Shown one piece after another: positions 2,725 through 25,174 of a stretch of 33,388 bases of DNA. The DNA is from a virus. Both the position numbers and the translations under genes were made by a program. Each line of letters opens with the position of its first letter. Within the stretch, counting starts at the first letter, position 1. Below the pieces are notes generated by a model that saw only the letters and a list, made by a program, of their open reading frames with translations, had not been told where the DNA came from and made no database searches. The stretch spans positions 1 to 33,388 of the IMG/VR virus record IMGVR_UViG_3300048444_000092; one strand, given 5' to 3'.

Positions 2725-3692
2725 TAATTAACCTCATGATAATCTTTGTACCAACTTACAAACTCTGCAACACCTTCTTCGATATCAACTACTGGTTGAT
2801 ATCCAATCTTTTCAATCTTAGATGTATTACTCCAAGTTTCGATTACGTCTGCAGGGTGAGGTGGTGTTTTTATAATATCTGGTTTCCTATTCAATTCAAT
2901 TCCTATTCTATTTATAAAATGCATTAGGTCGACTTGTCTGCCTCTACCAATATTAAAAATTTCATTTGAAGGTATATCTTGATTAAAGATACATAATTTA
3001 ATACCAGAGATTATGTCAGATATATACGTAAAGTCTCTTTTCATGAGACCCCAATTAAATGCTCTAACAGGATTACCAGCAACGATATTTTTTGTCATAT
3101 CATACAATGCCATATCTGGTCTACCCCATGGACCATATACTGTAAAAAATCTTAGACCTATATTATGTAAACCAGACATTTTAAATTGACATTCATTTAC
3201 ATACTTAGTATATGCATATGGATTCTTTTGATGTGGTTGAACTATCTCTTCTGTCCATGGCAATGTTTTTGTGCCACTATAAACAGATGATGTTGATGCA
3301 TAAATTACTTTAGTGACGTTATGTAACTTACATACGTTAATTAAATTTTGTGTGCCATCTATATTATCTCTGTGATACAAGTGTTCGTTGCCGACACTTT
3401 GGCGAACTCCAGCACGTGCCGCTAAATGTACGACAATATCTGGTTCATAATCCTGAAAAAGATAATCTAGTTTTTCAAAGTCATTTAAATCACAATTTCT
3501 TATTTCTAATCCAAAAGCATCACATCTATCTTCTTTTATTTGTGGGTCGTAATAGTTATTAAAGTTATCAATACCAACACAATACAAATCATATTCTTCT
3601 GTTAGTAAAGAATTCATCAAATGACTGCCGATAAATCCTGCTCCACCTGTAACTAAAATTTTCACGTAGTTAACTTCTGTTTCTGTAGACAT
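2724..3692 (-). CDS. NAD-dependent nucleotide-sugar epimerase (extended SDR, UDP-glucuronate epimerase-like)
   Basis: A 322-residue extended short-chain dehydrogenase/reductase. The NAD motif TGGAGFIGSH is at the N-terminus, followed by VVHLAARAGVRQS, a catalytic serine region (YASTSSVYSG) and YAYTKYVNE with the Y-x-x-x-K pair, then FFTVYGPWGRPDMAL, typical of UDP-glucuronate 4-epimerases and related sugar epimerases. With the dehydrogenase downstream it could convert UDP-glucose to UDP-galacturonate. Two starts are possible: ATG 3692, which overlaps the upstream gene by 23 bp, or GTG 3665, which would give the family-typical N-terminus MKILVTGG. Exact sugar specificity cannot be read from the sequence. 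Confidence 0.9.
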   Translation of the reverse strand: MSTETEVNYVKILVTGGAGFIGSHLMNSLLTEEYDLYCVGIDNFNNYYDPQIKEDRCDAFGLEIRNCDLNDFEKLDYLFQDYEPDIVVHLAARAGVRQSVGNEHLYHRDNIDGTQNLINVCKLHNVTKVIYASTSSVYSGTKTLPWTEEIVQPHQKNPYAYTKYVNECQFKMSGLHNIGLRFFTVYGPWGRPDMALYDMTKNIVAGNPVRAFNWGLMKRDFTYISDIISGIKLCIFNQDIPSNEIFNIGRGRQVDLMHFINRIGIELNRKPDIIKTPPHPADVIETWSNTSKIEKIGYQPVVDIEEGVAEFVSWYKDYHEVN

Positions 3693-4623
3693 ATTCTAAG
3701 GCCCTATCTGCTTCTCGTACCATATCTCTGTTTTTATACCAACCACCAGTTTCTGCATCAAACTCTTTGCATAGAGTTGCGACTTGTTGAGCAGTAATTG
3801 GGTAACCTTTCGATACTGCATTACCAGATGTTGCGACCATAATCTGATACATTTTATAATACCAACCACTTTCTGTTATAGTTCGATATTCTGTTTCAAG
3901 TTTCTTTGACCAGAAAGGACAATCTCTATAACTAGACCAATTGACGTTGGTATTATTTAGTTTGCTTTTACGATGTTCAACAACTGCTTTCTGTAATTCT
4001 GGTGGTAATCTATCTAGAAAGTTTACACCCTTGTTTTCAATATAAGAATGTTTCTCCATTAACATTTCTGGGTCAAGTTTGACACCATCGTTAGTAAAGA
4101 TAAAATTAAATGCATTTGGGTATTGTGCAGGAACATAATACATACGGGCAAGGTCTTTTGTTTGTTCGTCACCAATTTCTTTGAATTGTTTGTTCATCGC
4201 AAACCAGAAATGTGATAAGTCCTTCGCATCTACTTCTTTAGTAAGAGGAAAGACTAAACGAAACTTTGGTCGTTTTTCTGTAGATGATGCAGTACTATAA
4301 CATACATAATGATAAGCACCAAACTTTTCATACAACTCTTTTTTTAATTGCACAAGAACATCGCCAGATGTATCAGCAAGTATATAACTATCAACATCAA
4401 GACAAGACCAAGCACCCCATTTATTAACACTCTTATTACTTCTTGTCCGACCTTCGTCAAACCTAGCAGGACTAATAAGAGCAGAACTATTATTTCCACC
4501 TTTTGCACCTCGTTCATTAGATAATTTGTATAGCAACTCTTCAAATTTATCCCATGAATCAAAACTCATAGTTCTATGAGTCTTATTATCATAAGTATTT
4601 TTGAATATTGTTAAACTATACAT
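3670..4623 (-). CDS. Stand-alone archaeo-eukaryotic primase (AEP)-like protein
   Basis: 317 residues without a fused helicase. It carries a pattern seen in AEP/PrimPol-type phage and plasmid primases: an acidic D-x-D strand (WSCLDVDSYIL), then HYVCYSTASSTEKRPKFRLV followed by a FPLTKEV segment, then an acidic residue near KDLARMYYVPAQYPNAFNF. In that fold these would be metal-binding motif I, the S/T-rich motif II and the motif III region. The C-terminal 120 residues are helical and lack recognised motifs. T4-like phages normally use a DnaG-like gp61 primase, so this would be an extra polymerase/primase or a derived, perhaps inactive, protein. ATG 4623 (with GTG 4626 in frame just before it) lies 8 nt downstream of a perfect -10 box, so the mRNA is nearly leaderless. 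The function is inferred from motif spacing only. Confidence 0.55.
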   Translation of the reverse strand: MYSLTIFKNTYDNKTHRTMSFDSWDKFEELLYKLSNERGAKGGNNSSALISPARFDEGRTRSNKSVNKWGAWSCLDVDSYILADTSGDVLVQLKKELYEKFGAYHYVCYSTASSTEKRPKFRLVFPLTKEVDAKDLSHFWFAMNKQFKEIGDEQTKDLARMYYVPAQYPNAFNFIFTNDGVKLDPEMLMEKHSYIENKGVNFLDRLPPELQKAVVEHRKSKLNNTNVNWSSYRDCPFWSKKLETEYRTITESGWYYKMYQIMVATSGNAVSKGYPITAQQVATLCKEFDAETGGWYKNRDMVREADRALEYVYRNRS

Positions 4624-19825: not shown

Positions 19826-19839
19826 ATGGAGAAATGAAA

Positions 19840-20439
19840 ATGACAAAAGCGAGTGAAAAACCACATTACGTAAACAACAAAGAGTTTTCGTTAGCAGTAG
19901 TAGATTATTGTGAGAAAGCAGAGAAGGCAAAAAAACAGAAATCAAAAAAAGTGCCAATCGTACCTGACTACATTGCAGAATGTTTTTTAAAAATAGCAGA
20001 AGGGTTGTCACATAAATCAAACTTTATAAGATATACGTATCGTGAAGAAATGGTCATGGACGCCGTAGAAAATTGTTTAAAAGCAATTAAAAACTATGAT
20101 ATTAAAACTGCAACAAGAACTGGTACACCAAATGCATTTGCATATTTTACTCAGATATCTTGGTATGCATTCTTACGTAGAATCGAAAAAGAAAAGAAAC
20201 AACAAGACATTAAATTAAAATACATCGCCAATGTTGGTATAGATGATTTAGTTGACACACAAGATGGTGATATTAATCCAGACGAATCTACTGCATTTAT
20301 AGACAATCTACGTTCAAGAATCGATGGTGTTAGAGCAAACGATTTATATTGGAAAGATATTGTTACAGAAGAGAAAAAGAAGACAAGAAAGAGACGTGCA
20401 GTAAACGTTGATTCAGATTTAAAAGATTTCTTAAAGTAG
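19840..20439 (+). CDS. 55: gp55 late-transcription sigma factor
   Basis: 199 residues (T4 gp55 is 185). Landmarks: HYVNNKEFSLAVVDY (T4 NYVNNKELLQAIIDW), LKIAEGLSHKSNFIRYTYRE EMVMDAVE, and NAFAYFTQISWYAFLRRIEK EKK, the sigma region-2-like core. It ends in LKDFLK, similar to the T4 C-terminus that contacts the gp45 clamp. It directs host RNA polymerase to TATAAATA boxes, many of which are seen in this window. ATG 19840 is favoured over ATG 19834 because GGAG lies 8 nt before it, versus 2 nt for the upstream ATG. Confidence 0.95.
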   Translation: MTKASEKPHYVNNKEFSLAVVDYCEKAEKAKKQKSKKVPIVPDYIAECFLKIAEGLSHKSNFIRYTYREEMVMDAVENCLKAIKNYDIKTATRTGTPNAFAYFTQISWYAFLRRIEKEKKQQDIKLKYIANVGIDDLVDTQDGDINPDESTAFIDNLRSRIDGVRANDLYWKDIVTEEKKKTRKRRAVNVDSDLKDFLK

Positions 20440-20496: not shown

Positions 20497-20817
20497 TCAG
20501 AACTGAACTGACACGCCACATCCACATGACGATACTTCTTTAGGGTTTATTATCTTAAAATACTCGTTGATTCCGTCAACAACCCAATCTAAAGTAGAAC
20601 CTTCTAGATATGGCAATGATACTGCATCTACTACTATATTGAACTTTCCGTAATCTAAAATAGTATCGCTTTCAGCAATGGACTCAACATATTCAATATA
20701 ATACTCAAAACCAGCACACCCACCACCAGTGACCCCAAGACGAATACCACTTCGATTGCCTGTCTCCGTTCTCTCAATCGCTTTAGATATCGCTCCATCT
20801 GTTAACTCAATAACCAT
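20497..20817 (-). CDS. iscA: A-type Fe-S cluster carrier (IscA/ErpA-like)
   Basis: 106 residues, the usual IscA length. The three cluster cysteines are present: GGGCAGFEYYIEY in the middle and SSCGCGVSVQF at the C-terminus. A-type carriers accept clusters from IscU-type scaffolds and pass them to apoproteins. The start overlaps the iscU-like gene by 11 bp, so the two form an operon under a phage late promoter. The 57 bp between this stop and the convergent gp55 stop contain no clear terminator. Confidence 0.93.
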   Translation of the reverse strand: MVIELTDGAISKAIERTETGNRSGIRLGVTGGGCAGFEYYIEYVESIAESDTILDYGKFNIVVDAVSLPYLEGSTLDWVVDGINEYFKIINPKEVSSCGCGVSVQF

Positions 20818-21256
20818 AACCGTTCGGGTCTTCCCATGATTGATTATGTTTTCTATGCTTAGTCTTTTCTTCCCAATCTTCTACTGCACGTTTAATACCT
20901 TCTTCTGCAAGAACAGAACAATGCAATTTAATCGCAGGAAGTTCTAATGCTTCGGCAATGTCTTTATCTTTTATGAGTTTTGCTTCTTCGATAGTTTTAC
21001 CTTTTAGCATTTCGACAAACATCGTTGATGATGCTATCGCACTACCACACCCATATGTTTTAAACTTAACGTCTTCAATTACATCTGTATCAGGATTAAG
21101 TTTGATATCTAATTTCATGACATCACCACATGCTGGTGCGCCTACTAATCCTGTTGCAACATTCGGGTCTTTTGGGTCAAATCTACCCACCGCATGTTTT
21201 TCTGGATTTTTTAATACAGATTCAAATCTGTCTACTACTTTACTACTATATGCCAT
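20807..21256 (-). CDS. iscU: IscU Fe-S cluster assembly scaffold
   Basis: 149 residues; E. coli IscU is 128. The start MAYSSKVVDRFE and GAPACGDVMKLDIK, TYGCGSAIASSTMF and IKLHCSVLAEEGI give the three conserved cysteines, with the conserved aspartate in ACGD. The LPAIK segment resembles the LPPVK site bound by the HscA chaperone in E. coli. A C-terminal extension (HRKHNQSWEDPNGYGY) is not in the bacterial protein. ATG 21256 is 5 nt after a late TATAAATA box, so the mRNA should be leaderless; a longer frame to 21301 would include the promoter. No IscS is nearby, so sulfur must come from host enzymes. Confidence 0.95.
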   Translation of the reverse strand: MAYSSKVVDRFESVLKNPEKHAVGRFDPKDPNVATGLVGAPACGDVMKLDIKLNPDTDVIEDVKFKTYGCGSAIASSTMFVEMLKGKTIEEAKLIKDKDIAEALELPAIKLHCSVLAEEGIKRAVEDWEEKTKHRKHNQSWEDPNGYGY

Positions 21257-21261
21257 ACTAC

Positions 21262-21269
21262 TATTTATA
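21262..21269 (-). promoter_or_regulatory. T4-type late promoter of iscU-iscA, leaderless spacing
   Basis: TATAAATA on the minus strand, then GTAGT (5 nt), then ATG 21256. Same spacing as at 15409, 19223 and 21630. Confidence 0.82.
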
Positions 21270-21301
21270 AGAATCGTGTAGTTGATTGTATAGTAGTTCA
21301 A

Positions 21302-21550
21302 TGTCTCGGGGACTGCCCGATTTCTTACACTCTATTTTTTATCTAGGTGGTTTCGGCCTTCCACCATAACAAGTATCGTTTTACTGCAAATCCCAACCCA
21401 ACTACGTAAGAATTTCATTGCAATCATTGTTCGATGTTTACTCTAGTCTCACTACTATATGCCACGTCTTAATTGACTTTAACAACTAGAACATCTTTTC
21501 TGAGTCTCACAACAACCAACCAACTACGACTCTTCTCTACTTGTGATTTC
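21302..21550. other. Non-coding spacer between tRNA and iscU, with internal repeats
   Basis: No convincing long gene. It contains TCGGG/CCCGA (21305-21320) and GGTGG/CCACC (21347-21364) hairpins. The 14-mer ACTACTATATGCCA (21451-21464) is repeated exactly at the start of iscU (21242-21255), and CCAACCAACTACG-type segments occur near 21396 and 21518. On the minus strand a 31-codon frame from ATG 21427 to 21332 (begins MIAMKFLRSWVGI) exists without a Shine-Dalgarno; it may be a tiny gene or chance. Confidence 0.5.
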
Positions 21551-21624
21551 TGGCGGTCTCTAGGGGAATCGAACCCCTACTTCGTCTTAGACAGAGACAA
21601 GTTCTACCATTAAACTAAGAGACC
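21551..21624 (-). tRNA. tRNA-Asp-like (anticodon GTC), CCA encoded
   Basis: A full cloverleaf on the minus strand: acceptor GGTCTCT/AGAGACC, D stem GTTT/GAAC, anticodon stem TGTCT/AGACG with loop CTGTCTA, T arm AGGGG-TTCGATT-CCCCT, discriminator G and genomic CCA. The loop places GTC at 34-36, and G73 fits an Asp identity. Position 37 is T (U), where a purine is expected, and 38 is A. A late TATAAATA box ends 5 nt before tRNA nucleotide 1, so the primary transcript may begin at the mature 5' end. Confidence 0.9.
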
Positions 21625-21629
21625 AATGT

Positions 21630-21637: not shown

Positions 21638-21692
21638 AAAAAACCCCGGTCAAGGGAAGGGTGCTACCACTTCAAAATCTACCTCACCGGGG
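21637..21692 (-). terminator. Intrinsic terminator of the small RNA upstream of the tRNA
   Basis: CCCCGGT (21686-21692) pairs with ACCGGGG (21644-21650) on the minus strand, followed by seven T (21637-21643). The loop contains a smaller hairpin. A competing hairpin TCACC-CCC-GGTGA overlaps the 5' arm (21685-21697). Confidence 0.75.
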
Positions 21693-21765
21693 GTGAACGT
21701 CTGTCGACCTTTGACTTTACGCCGTTATTTTATTCTGAATCTTACCTCTCTTTCTTATTTTCAAT
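21638..21765 (-). ncRNA. Putative small non-coding RNA, about 125 nt, with own promoter and terminator
   Basis: Bounded by a consensus promoter (21772-21800) and a hairpin plus T7 terminator. No ATG frame of useful length lies within it. It could be a regulatory sRNA or an attenuated leader of the downstream tRNA/iscU region: the TCACC-CCC-GGTGA hairpin and the terminator stem are mutually exclusive. Confidence 0.6.
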
Positions 21766-21771
21766 ACAAGT

Positions 21772-21800
21772 ATTATAATAGGTTCGGCAACAATTGTCAA
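21772..21800 (-). promoter_or_regulatory. Consensus sigma-70 promoter of the small RNA
   Basis: TTGACA (21795-21800), 17 bp, TATAAT (21772-21777), minus strand. Back to back with the plus-strand promoter at 21824. Confidence 0.85.
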
Positions 21801-22171: not shown

Positions 22172-22468
22172 ATGAGAAAAAATAACTATAACAGACGTCC
22201 ACAGAGACCGAAGAAACGAAGATACGATGGGCCAAAAGATACTGGTCTAACTGTATATGTTCGTGATGGCAATGTCGACCAAGCACTCAGAAGATTTAAA
22301 AAGAAAGTTAAAACTGCTGGTGTTATTGAAGACTTAAAGAAAAAAGAATTTTTTGTCACTCGTAGAGAGAAACGTAGATTGCTAAAAGATAAAGCAATAC
22401 GTAGACAAAAAAGAGCAAACGAAGAGTTTAAGAATACTTTCCTTAGGGGAAATAGAGGCATTAGATAG
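22172..22468 (+). CDS. rpsU: Ribosomal protein bS21 homologue
   Basis: 98 residues; bacterial bS21 is about 60-75. After a basic N-terminal extension (NNYNRRPQRPKKRRYDG) comes the bS21 core: TVYVRDGNVDQALRRFKKKV, KTAGVIEDLKKKEFFVTRRE and the basic tail LLKDKAIRRQKRANEEF, matching the family pattern (VRENEPFDVALRRFKR, AGVLAEVRRREFYEKP). bS21 binds the 30S platform near the anti-Shine-Dalgarno of 16S rRNA and affects initiation. Phage-encoded bS21 is known from marine phages, including pelagiphages. The early, nearly leaderless promoter suggests host ribosomes are modified soon after infection. Confidence 0.93.
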   Translation: MRKNNYNRRPQRPKKRRYDGPKDTGLTVYVRDGNVDQALRRFKKKVKTAGVIEDLKKKEFFVTRREKRRLLKDKAIRRQKRANEEFKNTFLRGNRGIR

Positions 22469-22659: not shown

Positions 22660-22810
22660 CACGTTCATCTTAGTGTTATTGACCACTAAGACGGAAGTAG
22701 GAAAACCTGACAACCTCTTTCTTTTTCATAAAGAAAGGTAAGCAAGTAAGCACTTTTGGGTCAATATATTCCAGTGCTGAACGAGACCGAAAGTTAACCG
22801 AAGGAACGCA
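22660..22810 (+). ncRNA. Glutamine riboswitch (glnA / Downstream-peptide class)
   Basis: The conserved blocks are in order: CGTTCATC (22662-22669), GACGGAAGTAGG (22690-22701) and CCGAAGGAACGC (22798-22809). CGTTC pairs with GAACG to close helix P1. Between the first two blocks is a perfect hairpin CTTAGTG/CACTAAG. The stretch between the last two blocks is about 95 nt, longer than the compact aptamer, and contains a CTTTCTTT/AAAGAAAG hairpin. Aptamers of this class bind L-glutamine and in cyanobacteria and marine phages often precede short peptide genes, as here. Identification is from remembered consensus blocks. Confidence 0.85.
22734..22750 (+). repeat. 17-nt motif shared with the large ncRNA (copy 1)
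   Basis: AAAGGTAAGCAAGTAAG; copy 2 at 23585-23601 differs at one base (AAAGGTAGGCAAGTAAG). Both lie inside predicted structured RNAs. Confidence 0.65.
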
Positions 22811-22873
22811 TGGAGAAGGGTGTACGATTTATATCGTATGTACGAAATCGAAATGAAAACTGGAGGAAATACT

Positions 22874-22996
22874 ATGTATTGTTACAGAGGTATCAAATAT
22901 GATGCTAAAACTCTAAAGAGCAATGCTAAGAAATCCAAAGCGAAAAAAAGTGATGAAATCACTTATCGTGGGATTACTGGTAAAATTGCCGCTTAA
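22874..22996 (+). CDS. Riboswitch-controlled short peptide, 40 aa, DUF4278-like (two YRG motifs)
   Basis: MYCYRGIKYDAKTLKSNAKK then a basic linker and ITYRGITGKIAA. The opening YRGxxY and a second YRG near the end resemble DUF4278, a short domain widespread in cyanobacteria and their phages. A strong TGGAGGAAA Shine-Dalgarno precedes ATG 22874. ACTGGA (22859-22864), which includes part of that Shine-Dalgarno, can pair with TCCAGT (22770-22775) inside the riboswitch, offering a possible switch. Hairpin TACGAT/ATCGTA lies between the aptamer and the gene. A terminator follows. Function unknown; the control by glutamine hints at a link with nitrogen status. Confidence 0.8.
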   Translation: MYCYRGIKYDAKTLKSNAKKSKAKKSDEITYRGITGKIAA

Positions 22997-23014: not shown

Positions 23015-23045
23015 AAGGGCAGACTTAACATCTGCCCTTTTTCTT
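23015..23045 (+). terminator. Intrinsic terminator of the riboswitch-peptide unit
   Basis: AAGGGCAGA (23015-23023) and TCTGCCCTT (23031-23039), 7-nt loop, then TTTTTCTTT counting the last stem bases. Confidence 0.9.
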
Positions 23046-23261: not shown

Positions 23262-23269
23262 TATAAATA
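23262..23269 (+). promoter_or_regulatory. T4-type late box upstream of the large ncRNA
   Basis: Perfect TATAAATA just before the sigma-70 promoter at 23274. Together they would allow transcription of the ncRNA both early and late. Confidence 0.55.
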
Positions 23270-23273
23270 ATGG

Positions 23274-23302
23274 TTGACAAAACTTGTTAGTTTTGTTATT
23301 AT
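23274..23302 (+). promoter_or_regulatory. Sigma-70 promoter of the large ncRNA, -10 in a palindrome
   Basis: TTGACA (23274-23279), 17 bp, TATTAT (23297-23302). The 15-mer TTGTTATTATAACAA (23293-23307) is identical to the one at 21843-21857. Confidence 0.83.
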
Positions 23303-23584
23303 AACAACACTCGATAACGTTAACTTTGTAGTGTGAGTTAATAGTTCAGGGTCAATTGAGGTGAAAGTCCTCTTGAAGAAGAGACCTATCATACACGGTC
23401 GACTTGTGACCTGAACCTAGTTGGTGAGAGTTTTGCGACTCAATAAACAATGTAAGTTAATGTTTTGCGCCGAGGGCCAATTCATTAATGACGAAGCGGT
23501 AAAACGTGGGAAAGTAGATGCGAGTATAGATACATGGTTTGTGACCCCTATGGAAACAATAGATTGATTATCTAGAGAATACAA

Positions 23585-23601
23585 AAAGGTAGGCAAGTAA
23601 G
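23585..23601 (+). repeat. 17-nt motif shared with the riboswitch leader (copy 2)
   Basis: AAAGGTAGGCAAGTAAG, one mismatch to 22734-22750. Confidence 0.65.
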
Positions 23602-23790
23602 ACAATGACTATGAGTTAATCACGTAGAATCACAGTTTGACGGCCGTAAAAGAATGTGAACAACTTTGAAAGAGGTTGGGGAATTTACCCGAAAGACGAA
23701 GTATCTGCACCTTGATGAGCATGGAATTGCAAGGCGCCAAATCTCGATGGTAGTGAGTAGTAATGAGAATTGACCCAATACGAGGCGAAG

Positions 23791-23814
23791 AAGGAGTGGT
23801 GACACTCCTTTTTT
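23791..23814 (+). terminator. Intrinsic terminator of the large ncRNA
   Basis: AAGGAGTG-GTGA-CACTCCTT, a perfect 8-bp stem with a GNRA-type loop, then TTTTG. Confidence 0.92.
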
Positions 23815-23820
23815 GTATAT

Positions 23821-23850
23821 AAAAAGGGCACCCCGAAGAGTGCCCCTTTT
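23821..23850 (-). terminator. Intrinsic terminator of the capsid operon
   Basis: GGGCAC (minus, 23840-23845) and GTGCCC (23826-23831), 8-nt loop, then TTTTT on the minus strand; it lies just past the gp23 stop. A weaker hairpin also reads on the plus strand. Confidence 0.88.
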
Positions 23851-23869: not shown

Positions 23870-25174
23870 TTATGTTAAGATATTAGTTACCTTGAATATT
23901 CTGTAGTAGAAGTTAGTTTTAACACTAGCAAGACCGTTAGCAGGTGTAGAACCTACAAATGGGTTTGACGCCATTCCGTATCTTGTTTTAAAACCAATTC
24001 TAGGTTGGAAAGTATCTTCCCCAACTGCTTTGACCATTTGTAATGGTACGTATGGGCAGTAGAAAACACCGGCGTCATAAGGGTTAGTACCTTTATAACC
24101 TACTGTACAGTAGTCAGTATTTGCATATGGGTCGATGTATACTTTGATTCTTCCGTTAAGAAGACCAGCAAAAGTATTACCAGTATCGTCAACGTTTAAG
24201 TTGTTAGATATACCTGGAGAGTAATCTAAAGTTCCAGCGGCCGCTAAAGCAGTTGCAACGTCAGAAGAACAGATTAGGATATTACCTTTTCCTCTTCTTG
24301 AGTCTTTCGCTATCTGATTACATTCTCTGTCTATTTGAACACCTAAACCTTTGAACTTCTCAGCACTCCATCTTCCATCAGCATCAGAAGACATATTGAA
24401 CACACCATTAACAGTAACGTTTGCTTGTTGGGCACCGTCTTTTGCTTGTGAGTTAATAGTTCTGATAACTTCTCTATTGATTTCTGCTAAGATTTCAGTA
24501 GATAAGATGTTAGCAAGTTCTGTTTCAGCATCTAGACCGTGAATTGCTTTAAGGTCTTGAGCAAGTTCTAAAGTGTATTCTGCTTTTAGCGCCCTTGAAA
24601 CAGCAGTTACAGTTGATTTCTCAATTGTGAAACCCATTTCATTGAAGGTACTACCAGTAGATGCACCAAGTTCCTCAGCATCAACAGTAGGCATACCAGA
24701 AGCGGCAAGAGACGTTAATCTGTCACCATCTGAGTCAATACCATTGTAACCTGAAACGTTGTCAGAATCATGAGTTCCAGATGAATCACCTGAGAATCTA
24801 GTTTCTGCTTCGTTGAACAATGCTTCTCTATTAGAAGTTGAACCACCTTGATATCTTGCCTTCATGGCAAAGATTAAACCAGTTGGTCCATTCATTGGTT
24901 GAACACCACATACATCGTATGCGATTAAGTTAGGCATAGCACGTCTAACTAATGAGATTAAGACTGGGTCAAAATTGGACACACTTGAAGTATTGTTAGC
25001 AGGTGCGGCCTCAAATAACATAGTCTCATTTTGTTCTGCAATTGCTTTCTCTTGGTTTTCCAAAAGTGCCGCAGTTACGGAACGTCTGTGATTGTCTTTA
25101 ATTTCACCAGCAGATTCTTCATCTAAGACTGGTTTCCATTTTTCAATCAATTGGTCGTAAGATTGTACTTCCAT
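23870..25174 (-). CDS. 23: gp23 major capsid protein
   Basis: 434 residues, shorter than T4 gp23 (521). The N-terminal propeptide ends in ETMLFEAAPANNTS, matching the gp21 protease site (hydrophobic-x-E then cleavage). Mature-region landmarks: DPVLISLVRRAMPNLIAYDV and GVQPMNGPTGLIFAMKARY, followed by GVQIDRECNQIAKDSRRGKG and FVGSTPANGL near the end. An AGGAAAA Shine-Dalgarno precedes ATG 25174. No TATAAATA is visible immediately upstream, so it probably shares the transcript of gp22 and gp21. Confidence 0.97.
   Translation of the reverse strand: MEVQSYDQLIEKWKPVLDEESAGEIKDNHRRSVTAALLENQEKAIAEQNETMLFEAAPANNTSSVSNFDPVLISLVRRAMPNLIAYDVCGVQPMNGPTGLIFAMKARYQGGSTSNREALFNEAETRFSGDSSGTHDSDNVSGYNGIDSDGDRLTSLAASGMPTVDAEELGASTGSTFNEMGFTIEKSTVTAVSRALKAEYTLELAQDLKAIHGLDAETELANILSTEILAEINREVIRTINSQAKDGAQQANVTVNGVFNMSSDADGRWSAEKFKGLGVQIDRECNQIAKDSRRGKGNILICSSDVATALAAAGTLDYSPGISNNLNVDDTGNTFAGLLNGRIKVYIDPYANTDYCTVGYKGTNPYDAGVFYCPYVPLQMVKAVGEDTFQPRIGFKTRYGMASNPFVGSTPANGLASVKTNFYYRIFKVTNILT

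Follow-up and report, generated by a model that had tools for sequence, protein, structure and literature searches.

A probable ~507-nt noncoding RNA gene under purifying selection in an exchangeable slot beside gp23 of a marine T4-like phage

Between positions 23309 and 23815 of a 33-kb IMG/VR virus record (33,388 nt, here called the window) lies a stretch of DNA with good evidence of being functional noncoding sequence. From sequence comparison it is well supported as a discrete noncoding RNA gene of ~507 nt, bounded by a promoter and a terminator of its own and subject to purifying selection. The most likely identity of its product is an early, trans-acting phage RNA that would constitute a new, narrow family. 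On balance we think it probable that a marine T4-like phage here carries an independent gene for a noncoding RNA, which is expressed early and acts in trans in the take-over of the host. The original prediction for this locus, a large functional RNA, thus stands as far as a constrained noncoding gene is concerned; the long-range helix, the switch of fold and the late promoter that were part of it are not supported by the homologues.

Genomic setting and transcription unit

The capsid protein gp23 (23870–25174, minus strand) is 57–69% identical to its counterparts in Phage C48C1, Methylophilales phage Melnitz, the Pelagibacter phages HTVC008M and Mosig, and cyanophages, which places the window in the genome of a marine, T4-like member of the myoviruses (Kyanoviridae). 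The few kb after gp23 contain uvsY, uvsW and the late sigma factor in the reference phages. In the window, a variable, RNA-rich island of 3.4 kb lies between the late sigma factor (19834–20439) and gp23. It contains a NifU/HesB-type iron-sulphur assembly pair (20497–21301, minus strand), a tRNA-Asp, a homologue of ribosomal protein S21 (22172–22468, plus strand), a glutamine riboswitch with a small DUF4278-like peptide, and the ~507-nt RNA. The riboswitch (RF01739) stands directly 5' of the peptide, which has 58 residues and a weak DUF4278 match just under the Pfam cut-off; together they span 22660–22996 on the plus strand and are followed by a strong terminator at 23015–23039. The tRNA-Asp forms a module with ~280 nt of conserved noncoding DNA (21274–21629, minus strand). 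This module is missing as a block in the related contigs L011 and L088, where ~11 nt are found instead.

Upstream of the RNA, a strong early sigma-70-type promoter, TTGACA-17-TATTAT with a TG preceding the -10 element, is located at 23274–23302 (plus strand) and is kept in L088 and in L085, the contig with the most divergent version of the RNA. Since the window contains ten promoters of this quality and shuffled sequences lead one to expect 0.2, the predicted promoter is very probably a real early phage promoter and not a chance match. From it, transcription is predicted to start at about 23309 and to run on the plus strand to an intrinsic terminator at 23790–23815. This hairpin, AAGGAGTG-GTGA-CACTCCTT followed by a run of Ts, has a folding energy of -13.5 kcal/mol and is identical in L085, in agreement with the terminator first proposed. 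The lower AT content that had been noted is also seen, with a GC content above that of the DNA immediately upstream and a positive GC skew.

A second, bidirectional-looking hairpin (23826–23845) separates this terminator from gp23, which is convergent to the RNA gene. Because no gene on the same strand is found downstream before the terminator, a role as leader or riboswitch is unlikely, and it is for the same reason that we infer an action in trans. Judging from its position and promoter type, the RNA would be transcribed soon after infection by the host RNA polymerase with the housekeeping sigma factor, and might then bind a protein or an RNA, of host or phage origin, while take-over proceeds.

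Late expression had been proposed in addition, based on a late-promoter-like box directly ahead of the early promoter. The box, TATAAATA, is indeed present at 23262–23269 (plus strand), and the window has more copies of its motif than expected (12 vs 5.3). However, it has become TACAAATA in L085 and TATAAAATA in the sister contigs L003, L004 and L007. As the box is thus lost in the former and altered in the latter, late expression is not supported.

Homologues, constraint and coding capacity

The distribution of the ~507-nt RNA is very narrow. Three distinct versions, 100%, 97% and 92% identical, were detected in IMG/VR on several contigs from different metagenomes, the last being that of L085. 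An assembly artefact can be rejected because the contigs of several IMG datasets agree. Sensitive blastn searches of GenBank phages gave chance matches only. Scans of IMG/VR with different 16–18-mers returned the same small set of contigs together with chance matches, as checked by nhmmer; these patterns require exact identity, so that homologues below ~80% identity were possibly missed. A scan of bacterial genomes led to one match, with no similarity around it. When a covariance model of the conserved 3' core was applied to 54 related records, one weak second match was obtained (G001 3659–3794, 15 bits), which lies in a structural-gene region and is taken as chance.

How strongly is the RNA constrained? 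Compared with L085, 35 of its 507 sites differ (6.9%), a rate similar to that of the adjacent 3' end of gp23 (19 of 331 sites), whereas 59 of 318 sites differ in adjacent noncoding DNA (18.6%, p=5e-7). The changes are unevenly distributed. Divergence amounts to 3.8% in the first 132 nt (23309–23440, plus strand), which contain an invariant helix GTTCAGG/CCTGAAC, and to 2.2% in a 3' core (23669–23760, plus strand), vs 11% in the middle part (p=0.0015 for the contrast). The 3' core also contains the longest run without change, 83 nt (p=0.03). This pattern suggests conserved 5' and 3' domains that would be linked by a faster-evolving middle.

A decaying remnant, that is, a former gene, intron or tmRNA of which promoter and terminator are left, would fit the narrow distribution, the absence from sister phages and the variable nature of the gp55–gp23 island. 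It is nevertheless a quite unlikely explanation, given that conservation is far above that of the adjacent noncoding DNA and that no similarity to a protein, tmRNA or intron family is found, by searches whose tmRNA model does detect the tmRNAs of relatives.

A protein product, in turn, is ruled out by stops in all frames and by indels of 1–2 nt between the homologues, which are not multiples of three. No long open frame exists on the plus strand within 23309–23815, in line with the absence of a gene noted at the outset, and the region has no protein-family match in Pfam or PHROGs. Codon-type substitution, the observation that would have spoken against an RNA, was looked for in the homologues with an outcome that favors a noncoding function. 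What emerges is a unit with its own promoter and terminator and without a conserved frame, as is characteristic of an independent noncoding RNA gene.

Known RNA families and the predicted fold

To our knowledge, no function has been established for GOLLD, ROOL and similar large RNAs of phages, and few large RNAs are known in ocean T4-like phages. Rfam models applied to the window and to L085 yielded no family match for the RNA, only chance-level matches to other families. None of the families suggested initially is recovered: the GOLLD covariance model (RF02032) has no match at E <= 10, the models for OLE, HEARO, group I and II introns and RNase P have none, and neither does that for ROOL (RF03087), in a family-specific search that was without a positive control, as no control genome gave a match.

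The RNA might still be an 'ornate' molecule of the GOLLD or ROOL kind, architectural, possibly multimeric and made during infection, with an unrelated sequence. Like GOLLD it is a large phage noncoding RNA with a tRNA in the neighbourhood, and like ROOL it is phage-encoded near tRNA genes and of a similar size class (~500–600 nt); a tRNA and a second RNA lie within 2 kb. Its 3' region is conserved and the remainder less so, as has been described for GOLLD (PMC12286853). In contrast, many GOLLD members exceed 800 nt, and the ~507-nt RNA is shorter, narrowly distributed, devoid of an established elaborate fold and not unusually stable once the terminator is left aside. Together with the silent Rfam models, including the family-specific searches (that for ROOL as qualified above), this makes such an RNA rather unlikely.

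A second comparison is provided by the permuted tmRNA (RF01849) of Melnitz-like phages and pelagimyophages, an RNA gene of ~300–420 nt in related Kyanoviridae, which in Melnitz has an early promoter in front. Because in Melnitz this tmRNA has a glutamine riboswitch as its immediate neighbour (PMC9004378), the outcome of the tmRNA searches matters here. The ~507-nt RNA lies 0.5 kb from a glutamine riboswitch, and its neighbourhood and length resemble those in Melnitz, where the tmRNA match covers 418 bases directly before the riboswitch. A highly derived two-piece tmRNA is nonetheless mostly refuted and must be regarded as very improbable. The alpha_tmRNA model, which reaches 1e-31 to 1e-19 in Melnitz, HTVC008M and Mosig as positive controls, finds nothing in the window or in its 99-kb relative; within 23309–23815 there is neither a T-arm motif nor a tag frame ending in Ala-Ala-stop; and ARAGORN reports no tmRNA for the RNA. 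The cyanophage noncoding RNAs CFrI, PhotoRC-II and wcaG (named in PMC9964418) share with the ~507-nt RNA that they belong to T4-like marine phages, but the latter has no Rfam match and is a free-standing unit of that length.

The fold of the ~507-nt RNA is weakly supported by the available sequences. Relative to shuffles, its minimum free energy has a z-score of -2.4 to -2.65 with the terminator and of -0.77 without it; the folding energy of the RNA apart from its terminator is ordinary. A two-sequence consensus fold gives z=-3.5 on the plus strand vs -2.3 on the minus strand, against column shuffles in which dinucleotides are not kept. A fold of all three versions has 142 pairs, two of them changed on both sides and several with single, G-U-compatible changes; with only three distinct sequences, which are at least 92% identical, this does not amount to a real covariation test. 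Substitutions do not avoid the helices predicted from the single sequence (8.3% of paired vs 8.6% of unpaired positions).

Two individual helices had been singled out at this locus. The long-range pairing GGGTCAATT/AATTGACCC, over about 430 nt, can be formed, but one or more perfect inverted repeats of 9 bp arise in 22% of dinucleotide shuffles, and L085 retains seven of the nine pairs, with two broken and no compensatory change, so that this helix was discarded as a defining feature. The local helix GTTCAGG/CCTGAAC exists as described and is uninformative because it does not vary; the switch between the two folds is unsupported.

Alternatively, the RNA could act as a base-pairing regulator or sponge, in which single-stranded stretches would base-pair to RNAs of the host or the phage, with an overall fold of minor importance. 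The ordinary folding energy agrees with this, as does the fact that the longest conserved stretch is a block of sequence with no obvious stable helix. When phage DNA was searched by blastn, however, no extended complementarity was found elsewhere except for promoter repeats, and we consider this mode of action improbable.

An exchangeable slot and a second, smaller RNA

Sister phages with an identical gp23 protein (L003, L004 and L007; 100% in the best segment) lack the ~507-nt RNA at this site. Their flanks are kept: homology to the window ends within the promoter (23288) and is found again from the end of the terminator (23809) onwards. In these phages the slot (23289–23808, plus strand) holds a different RNA of ~130 nt, whose -10 region and terminator are its own. 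Since homology breaks at promoter and terminator, this is an exchangeable RNA cassette.

This arrangement invites a broader interpretation, which we put forward tentatively and as less than likely: the ~507-nt RNA may represent a family, so far undescribed, of large RNAs that are made early and act in trans, and the slot adjoining the capsid gene may be a dedicated RNA site where members of one phage population swap alternative host-takeover RNAs as promoter-to-terminator cassettes. If true, noncoding RNA genes would be traded between phages as modules, just as genes for proteins are, the basis being a constrained ~500-nt RNA whose place is taken, promoter and terminator included, by an unrelated small RNA that shows covariation. 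The large-RNA/small-RNA slot would then offer a defined, testable pair of loci.

The small RNA is also encoded in the window, at a different place and in a different orientation than in the sisters (21638–21767, minus strand). There it adjoins the tRNA-Asp and has a perfect early promoter of its own (21772–21800). In a third group of phages (L009–L022) it is found beside gp23 together with the tRNA. Outside the window it is located at L007:3940–4068(-), L009:4008–4132(+) and L021:2641–2766(+). Across 12 versions, seven pairs of the lower stem and two upper pairs are changed on both sides, and the terminator stem shows strong compensatory changes. These two-sided changes mark the small cassette clearly as a structured RNA. 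With a conserved core, AACGGCGTAAAGTCAAA, and no match in Rfam, it is a good candidate for a new family of phage sRNAs.

Its promoter together with the leader TATAATACTTGTATTGAGAATGAG is common to several early genes of related phages, at L046:5226, 5620 and 6225, L036:7169 and 7804, and L075:8766. As this conservation extends beyond the -10 element, the first transcribed bases may matter.
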